From an uncultured Prevotellaceae bacterium (GTDB taxonomy: Bacteria > Bacteroidota > Bacteroidia > Bacteroidales > Muribaculaceae), in the NCBI GenBank assembly GCA_900318205.1, contig ONJS01000031.1, positions 1 to 32,161 of the forward strand: a DNA stretch of 32,161 nt, read 5' to 3'. Each line of letters begins with the position of its first letter. The stretch's first letter is position 1. The position numbers and the translations under genes were made by a program. This document shows, piece by piece, positions 8,523 to 9,000 of the stretch. A model generated the notes under the pieces. It was not told where the DNA came from. It searched no databases and was given only the letters and a program-made list of their open reading frames with translations.

Positions 8523-8565
8523 ATTCAGGCGATATTTTTGTCACAGGCAAAAGTATCGCCTGAAT
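8523..8565. other. long hairpin downstream of the VanZ-like gene
   Basis: ATTCAGGCGATATTTTTG (8523-8540) and CAAAAGTATCGCCTGAAT (8548-8565) are inverted repeats of 18 bp with one mismatch and a 7-nt loop. It begins 28 bp after the VanZ-like stop. There is no clean T-run after either arm, so it is not a standard intrinsic terminator; it could act as a 3'-end stabiliser or be part of an unknown transcript. A further partial copy (TCAGGCGG) lies just downstream at about 8576. Confidence 0.5.
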
Positions 8566-8680
8566 TTCATATAAATCAGGCGGCGTCATGACATAGATAG
8601 TGTTTGGTAAAATCATTTAGTTGCTCAGTAATCATTTGAAAATAAGATAAATATTGGCCTCTTATGAATCATGGGCTTGC

Positions 8681-8960
8681 TTCTTGCCTCGAAGAGGCTG
8701 GTCGGTTCGAAGACTCGACTTTAATGGAAAACACCATGCAAGCCCGTCGATGACGGGCGCAGCTTGGTGACAGCTATACCAAAAAGCATGTGCGTCGAAG
8801 ACGAACTTCCACAGCCAAATTTCTATCAACCAAAAAGTTCCTCTTCGAGGCACTTGCAGTGGTCTGCTCTGTGACCAAGCTGCGAACCTCTCCGAGGTTC
8901 TTGCATGGTCTTTCTCATTGAAATCGGTTCTTCGAACCGCCAACATCTTCGATGTTTTTA
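8681..8960. repeat. roughly 280-bp palindromic element made of eight mini-hairpins
   Basis: This non-coding stretch is a large imperfect inverted repeat centred at about 8821. The left arm (8686-8807) and the reverse complement of the right arm (8956-8836) align throughout, with shared blocks such as CGCAGCTTGG (8758-8767, paired with 8884-8875) and ACCATGCAA (8733-8741, paired with 8909-8901). Each arm carries four short hairpins with three-base loops built on a TCGAAGA-like core: 8686-8698, 8704-8717 (imperfect), 8742-8758 and 8793-8803 on the left; 8840-8850, 8884-8900, 8925-8939 and 8942-8956 on the right. Their centres mirror each other (spacing 18, 40, 48, then 47, 40, 17). Paired hairpins differ in sequence yet keep complementary stems. 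A 94-codon minus-strand ORF (8662-8946) spans it but looks like chance. It matches no element I can name; it could be a structured RNA, a ssDNA-hairpin mobile element or protein-binding array. Confidence 0.7.
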
Positions 8961-9000
8961 GCGGACAATAAAGATAAAAAATAAAAAACTGCGTCTTTTA

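Follow-up and report, generated by a model that had tools for sequence, protein, structure and literature searches.

A palindromic array of mini-hairpins in an uncultured Prevotellaceae bacterium is probably a gene-less relative of TnpA-Y1 units within a MITE-like shell

What kind of element is a non-coding palindrome composed of one short hairpin after another? The question is raised by contig ONJS01000031.1 (GenBank assembly GCA_900318205.1, an uncultured Prevotellaceae bacterium), whose 32,161 nucleotides are called the window here and in which positions 8686-8954 consist of two inverted arms of about 122 nt, each with four hairpins. A preliminary description had recognized an inverted duplication of some 130 bp per arm, and all the hairpin coordinates that it named proved correct when re-read from the sequence. 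The two mirrored four-hairpin arms likewise stand, with the correction that the mobile unit is larger, at about 8596-8973. The element had been matched to no known RNA or repeat family; this is true of Rfam at gathering scores, yet a known enzyme superfamily can be named to which it belongs. Indeed, comparison with related sequences makes it likely, at a probability of about 0.8, that the palindrome comprises the two terminal hairpin arms, but not the gene, of a Y1 (HUH) unit such as those of TnpA-Y1 subclass 1.2. The unit would be similar to the REPtrons built from repetitive extragenic palindromic (REP) sequences, and the arm pair lies in a shell like that of a miniature inverted-repeat transposable element (MITE).

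The arms could be identified as a dispersed family, and the selection on them recognized, from their homologous copies. BLAST searches with 8665-8965 gave nine places with long matches in the source genome, both arms being present at five of these; many genomes of the same genus also gave strong matches. A covariance model of one arm (R1), run over genomes at E 1e-5 with stricter filters, found 16 arms in the source genome; of 61 genomes of the genus 52 had arms, and the 10 genomes examined from other families of the same order had none. Some arms are partnerless (e.g. L032). The preliminary description had named a covariance-model search of related genomes, a copy count in the source genome and a test for covariation above chance as checks on its claim that structure rather than sequence is under selection, and all three bore it out. 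In an alignment of 78 distinct arms (32 pairs), compared with shuffled alignments, which ignore kinship, and with slid ones, the hairpin cells were paired in 97.5% of cases (85.2% when shuffled), 19 of the 32 pairs had changed on both sides (9.8 when shuffled), and the covariation score was 0.325, against 0.103 (standard deviation 0.005) for shuffled and 0.026-0.052 for slid alignments. Without guidance, RNAalifold recovered a nearly identical arm structure. Selection of the hairpin structure rather than of its sequence is thus strongly supported by the aligned copies.

The palindrome of the window is itself much more prone to folding than its shuffles (z -11.8 and -12.1 on the two strands; none of 100 shuffles equalled it), and over 71 nt the arms complement each other at 77%. 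Its minimum-energy fold pairs the arms to each other and leaves the hairpins as side arms, as would be expected if a cruciform or four-way junction of the whole palindrome, the long stem of the preliminary description, were the working form. Against this, among 25 two-arm loci with 11 variable pairs, pairing was kept within arms in 529 of 547 cells (97%), while identity from arm to arm, and with it the long duplex, was kept in 236 of 547 (43%). Since pairing is maintained within arms and lost between them, it is the local hairpins that are selected, and not the long stem. Moreover, intact units have a gene between the arms, and single arms occur. The junction is accordingly a very improbable working form, and this part of the preliminary description is not supported.

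For the loops of the hairpins, a GNA triloop with, in most cases, a closing C-G pair is a better description than the 'TCGAAGA core' first proposed for these hairpins with 3-nt loops. GNA loops were found in 287 of 312 cases (72, 72, 67 and 76 of 78 arms for hairpins 1-4), with A in the middle 194 times, T 55, G 31 and C 7 times, and the C-G closing pair was present in 68, 74, 74 and 78 of the 78 arms, respectively. The GAT loop of left-arm hairpin 3 in the window is an exception to this pattern. Counted on the GNA strand, there are 56 G.T cells and 12 A.C cells, an excess which points to this strand as the one that folds. GNA trinucleotide loops are reported to form very stable mini-hairpins in DNA (PMC6479982, citing Hirao 1994 and Yoshizawa 1997). 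Of the two forms left open at the outset, RNA or single-stranded DNA, the latter is therefore favoured, as judged from these loops and from the inverted placement of the arms around the gene of an HUH single-stranded-DNA transposase, described below.

Alternatively, the arms might act as RNA, for instance as a terminator, an mRNA stabilizer or a regulator of the Y1 gene, and have been dispersed because they are useful or tolerated at gene ends. Covariation is indeed present in the hairpins, either strand can fold as RNA, the inner hairpins lie directly before and directly after the Y1 gene in intact units, and roles of just these types have been credited to REP repeats (PMC8266576). However, GNA loops are known from very stable DNA mini-hairpins and, the arms being inverted, one of the two would be antisense in any single transcript. 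The palindrome has no Rfam match at gathering scores, the sole match in the window being a 5S rRNA at the contig end (32070-32161), and the two terminator candidates between 8400 and 9200 lie outside the element; the scans for sigma-70 promoters and for terminators each returned two sites, where shuffled sequences gave 1.0 and 0.9 on average. An RNA function thus appears unlikely.

The enzyme to which the arms belong was reached through half-size relatives of the element, where a protein of 147 amino acids (P0001) adjoins the arms. It is a Y1_Tnp protein (Pfam, E 7.9e-21) which passes the IS200 model NF033573 (57.8 versus 55) and stays below the cut-off of the RAYT model NF047646 (25.8 bits versus 80). 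Intact units have the order arm, 147-amino-acid Y1 (HUH) gene, inverted arm. Both inverted arms were found by BLAST at 11 of 13 Y1 loci encoding proteins at least 73% identical to P0001, and the other two have one arm, L042 being cut by a contig edge and L031 having only 140 nt upstream. At seven further loci (74-80% identity), R1 found both arms in every case; six of these had contributed no row to the model, L212, whose arms are in R1, is not independent, and L214 was excluded as the same gene as L023. Farther away, R1 still found both arms at L215-L217 (57-61% identity) and none at L218 (42%), and at E <=0.01 it found at least one arm at 13 of 19 more distant Y1 loci, both at six and none at six.

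The arms also diverge along with the enzymes. Leaving aside L031 and loci with a short upstream region, pairs of loci had an upstream-arm score of at least 40 in 6/6 cases at protein identities of at least 90%, in 35/65 at 70-90%, in 9/18 at 60-70%, in 2/121 at 50-60% and in 0/225 below 50%. Folds of the flanks of 19 Y1 loci show, by eye, a common layout under unrelated sequences in most of them: small hairpins are accompanied by a long one with mismatches and, next to the gene, by another that has a 1x1 mismatch. The number of arms per genome follows the gene as well, with a median of 14 where a cognate gene (Y1 at >=70% identity) is present (n=19) and of 2 where it is not (n=42; p 6e-7, kinship being ignored in this comparison). 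At L045, a tandem array with a unit like GTTCGAAGACGCTACTGTG lies upstream of the Y1 gene and runs into the arm.

The Y1 proteins have the HUH and Y...Q..HH motifs in 32 of 32 aligned sequences (two of them identical, from one genome), and H53, H55, Y113, Q117, H120 and H121 were invariant in 27 aligned proteins. Genomes of the genus contain few such genes (0-7 matches at E 1e-10 in 37 genomes). An AlphaFold2 model (pLDDT 89) matches the TnpA proteins of ISDra2 (best E 4.9e-9) and IS608, and superimposes on the REP-bound RAYT 4er8 with a root-mean-square deviation of 2.9 over 118 columns. Quentin et al. (2018, PMC6006769) give the combination of HUH and Y...Q..HH as the signature for TnpA-Y1 subclass 1.2, and the cognate genes fit the features given there: HUH with NH or DH, Y...Q..HH, low copy number and occurrence in Bacteroidetes. 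The fit is one of motifs, copy number and host range. The same survey places the subclass close to IS200 transposases without properties of insertion sequences, and lists no REP partner for it (PMC6006769); by contrast, inverted hairpin arms are usual around the cognate genes studied here. In the open-access literature we noticed no paper that assigns subclass 1.2 a partner repeat, in a search that did not extend to subscription papers, supplements or the pages of ISfinder.

Inverted flanks are not confined to the close relatives. They were scored against mono-nucleotide shuffles, with both flanks required, and because of this simple kind of shuffling control genes were added. The flanks exceeded the shuffles at 28 of 29 Y1 loci (27 from the genus and two from other families; L057 fails, L060 is weak and three loci were too short), with 1 of 36 control open reading frames positive. 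In the wider order, 23 of 27 Y1 loci were positive, three more being too short and two, both positive, repeating loci of the 29. The best 80 named matches, mostly from Bacteroidota with a few metagenome-assembled genomes of Planctomycetes, Cloacimonadota and Neomarinimicrobiota, yielded 70 loci (10 were omitted, mostly because of contig-end cuts), 68 of which passed the length and duplicate checks; inverted flanks were present at 57 of these, against 1 of 42 control open reading frames. This set overlaps the other genome set, so that the counts are not additive. Its proteins have [ND]HxH in 68/68 and an exact Y...Q..HH in 64/68 cases. Rumen samples are named in many of the record titles among the best 80 named matches, and among the matches listed the cultured carriers include Chryseobacterium and Cyclobacterium; in the complete chromosome of Chryseobacterium sp. 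ZHDP1, the flank repeat is matched 13 times, twice next to the gene.

Strong direct repeats (score >=40) also occur at 25 of the 68 named loci. At L224, L236, L246, L251 and L284, long direct plus inverted repeats are found on both sides of the Y1 genes, a pattern which suggests tandem or nested arm blocks.

How, then, did a pair of arms without a gene reach its present position? Most full copies share the ends ATTRGTGTCCGG and CCGGACACTAAT and a left part of 70-80 nt, and in the window GTGTCC-type ends and duplications of about 9 bp surround the gene-less copy. The end pattern ATTRGTGTCCGGNRAAA was found in 37 of 101 same-genus genomes, the reversed control in none. Insertion is directly apparent from an orthologous gap in genome G032 (L148) that is empty: there CATGAC is joined directly to ATAAAAAATAAAAAACTGCG, and the window has the element in between (a comparison by eye; the VanZ-like neighbour is 83% identical and the L148 stretch is tandemly doubled). 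When R1 was run on 20 of 30 VanZ-like loci, the sole match was L147, the window itself. Flanks matched at >=8 of 9 positions in 9 of 20 end pairs, against 21 of 380 mismatched pairings, the end pairs being script-found and several of them alternative pairings of one locus. Terminal inverted repeats and target duplication, the marks of a MITE, are thus present in the family, while the ends of the window copy are degenerate and only its right duplicate is clean. The ATTRGTGTCCGG shell also encloses many unrelated cargoes (L068, L070, L073, L081, L088, L092, L094 and loci among L098-L126), some of them hairpin arrays like those on either side of other Y1 genes.

These properties would also fit an ordinary MITE, the dead derivative of a DDE element, in which the hairpins are palindromic filler and the association with Y1 arose from Y1 units inserting into MITEs; the terminal repeats, the 9-bp duplications and the empty site are real, and the same ends do surround unrelated cargoes. 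Such an origin would not, however, lead one to expect arms inverted on both sides of close Y1 genes at 11/13 and 7/7 loci, nor the absence of an exact shell end from all 20 close Y1 loci, nor strong covariation of what should be filler. We consider it improbable that the element is nothing but such a MITE. An integron or a CRISPR was considered as well and dropped, no search having been directed at either. Family-A arms are, in addition, found inside a second type of terminal repeat, GTAACTATTCAGCGATT / AATCGCTGAATAGTTAC, with both ends at L034 and one clear end at L026 and L035; these ends resemble those of IS66-type elements.

Several observations weigh against a derivation of the palindrome from a Y1 unit. 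The source draft genome (94.8% complete) contains no close Y1 gene, and its only Y1 match (E <=1e-10) is 42% identical and accompanied by other arms, so that the window copy is either an orphan or has its gene in the missing part of the genome. Thirteen further genomes without a cognate gene carry at least four arms. Inverted flanks were absent from 4 of the 27 wider-order loci and from 11 of the 68 named loci, and 4 of the latter lack an exact Y...Q..HH by pattern. As to the shell, the window copy has a degenerate target duplicate on its left (8593-8598), and no shell transposase was noticed among the open reading frames of the inspected same-end loci, which were viewed by eye, with no profile search, although two pattern searches and 20 regions gave many same-end elements. 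Finally, since the shell carries other hairpin arrays too, shell and arms seem to have had separate histories.

If the palindrome is nevertheless a pair of Y1 arms, the following course of events may be envisaged. The region would become single-stranded, for example on the lagging-strand template, and the arm showing GNA loops on the exposed strand would fold up as a long imperfect hairpin accompanied by three mini-hairpins of great stability. A Y1 enzyme would bind this array and cut and rejoin single strands there; its activity would seed copies of the arms, its own gene staying at one to a few per genome in the manner of REPtrons. The window copy would then have been carried as cargo in the short shell, with its GTGTCC-type ends and duplication of about 9 bp, and have landed between two genes, one VanZ-like and the other for an XRE-methyltransferase. 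Five arms (L005, L019, L038, L085 and L087) are interrupted at one identical position by two unrelated foreign inserts of about 75 and 100 nt; the break directly follows CCATGCA(A), where hairpin 3 has its 5' foot. A preferred site of single-strand cleavage or insertion may lie there.

Such a system would work much like REP, BIME and REPIN sequences with their RAYT enzymes in the REPtrons of E. coli. In both, a low-copy Y1 gene lies between inverted hairpin repeats, gene-less inverted pairs are dispersed, each enzyme lineage has its own repeat, and a long hairpin has a conserved mismatch. The arm of about 122 nt with four ordered hairpins differs, however, from the single hairpin of 20-50 nt of a REP, and its loops are GNA. 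We do not file it as REP because a GT[AG]G foot is not conserved (5' foot of hairpin 1, 0/78; hairpin 2, 2/78; long hairpin, 0/78; outer foot of hairpin 4, 16/78) and because the enzyme scores under the NCBIfam RAYT cut-off. With IS200/IS605 elements such as IS608 and ISDra2 the system shares fold and catalytic motifs and, presumably, the use of hairpins as recognition sites. In those elements each end has a single subterminal hairpin, both hairpins are on the same strand, and no target duplication is made; here, the arms are inverted multi-hairpin arrays rather than same-orientation single-hairpin ends. Y1 genes of subclass 2.6 and class 3 also lie beside atypical structures that recur at other places in the genome, but their motifs are YIH[QN]NP or Y....Q, and ordered hairpin arrays do not figure in the account of them used here (PMC6006769). 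The shell resembles bacterial MITEs in its terminal repeats, target duplications, empty site and lack of a gene; it differs in that no parental transposase was noticed among the open reading frames viewed by eye and in that its cargo is a selected hairpin array.

Table 1. Features of the hairpin element in the window. Arm limits are from a profile derived from the copies; strand is that of the GNA loops for arms and hairpins
Feature	Position	Strand	Basis and details
Whole inserted element (shell and gene-less arm pair)	8596-8973	.	Empty site in L148 and other full copies; left edge +/- few bases
Left terminal inverted repeat, degenerate	8599-8607	+	Window AGTGTTTGG; family ATTRGTGTCCGG
Left subterminal shell region, diverged	8608-8685	+	Aligned with other copies; weakly alike in window copy
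Left arm	8686-8809	+	Profile and R1 (match 8684-8813, E 1.8e-25)
Hairpin 1, left arm	8686-8698	+	GCCTC-GAA-GAGGC; sequence GCCTCGAAGAGGC
Hairpin 2, left arm	8703-8717	+	CGGTTC-GAA-GACTCG; imperfect in window copy (one T.C mismatch, one G.T pair)
Long imperfect hairpin, left arm	8732-8769	+	CACCA..TGGTG; encloses core hairpin 3
Core hairpin 3, left arm	8742-8758	+	GCCCGTCGATGACGGGC; loop GAT
Hairpin 4 (inner), left arm	8788-8808	+	CGTC-GAA-GACG at 8793-8803; conserved G.A mismatch beneath
Spacer between arms (24 nt)	8810-8833	.	Position occupied by Y1 gene in intact relatives
Right arm	8834-8954	-	Profile and R1 (E 1.7e-26)
Hairpin 4, right arm	8835-8855	-	+ strand reads CCTC-TTC-GAGG at 8840-8850
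Long imperfect hairpin, right arm	8873-8910	-	Core hairpin 3 at 8884-8900, GAACCTCTCCGAGGTTC
Hairpin 2, right arm	8925-8939	-	
Hairpin 1, right arm	8942-8956	-	AACATCTTCGATGTT
Right terminal inverted repeat	8961-8973	-	Window GCGGACAATAAAG; family CCGGACACTAAT
Right target-site duplicate	8974-8982	.	ATAAAAAAT; present at matching point of empty site; read by eye

Outside the element, a hairpin ATTCAGGCGATA...TATCGCCTGAAT at 8523-8565 precedes the XRE-methyltransferase gene and recurs in many of the orthologous gaps among L148-L163, with compensating stem changes seen by eye; it is perhaps an operator or a terminator.

On balance, it is also probable, if with less assurance than for the window copy itself, that the subclass-1.2 HUH enzymes of Bacteroidota constitute widespread single-stranded-DNA systems, which would recognize GNA mini-hairpins arrayed in a fixed order about a single long hairpin with mismatches; the arrays would be lineage-specific in sequence and shared in layout, and would spread without the gene, partly inside MITE shells. 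Subclass 1.2 would thereby gain a candidate substrate for which boundaries, the polarity of the strand and a rule for the loops are given, and which opens binding and cleavage to direct tests. Conspicuous repeats of Bacteroidales would be accounted for, and hairpins under selection would be seen nested within a mobile element of another kind. GNA mini-hairpins, for their part, would gain a natural use in mobile elements.
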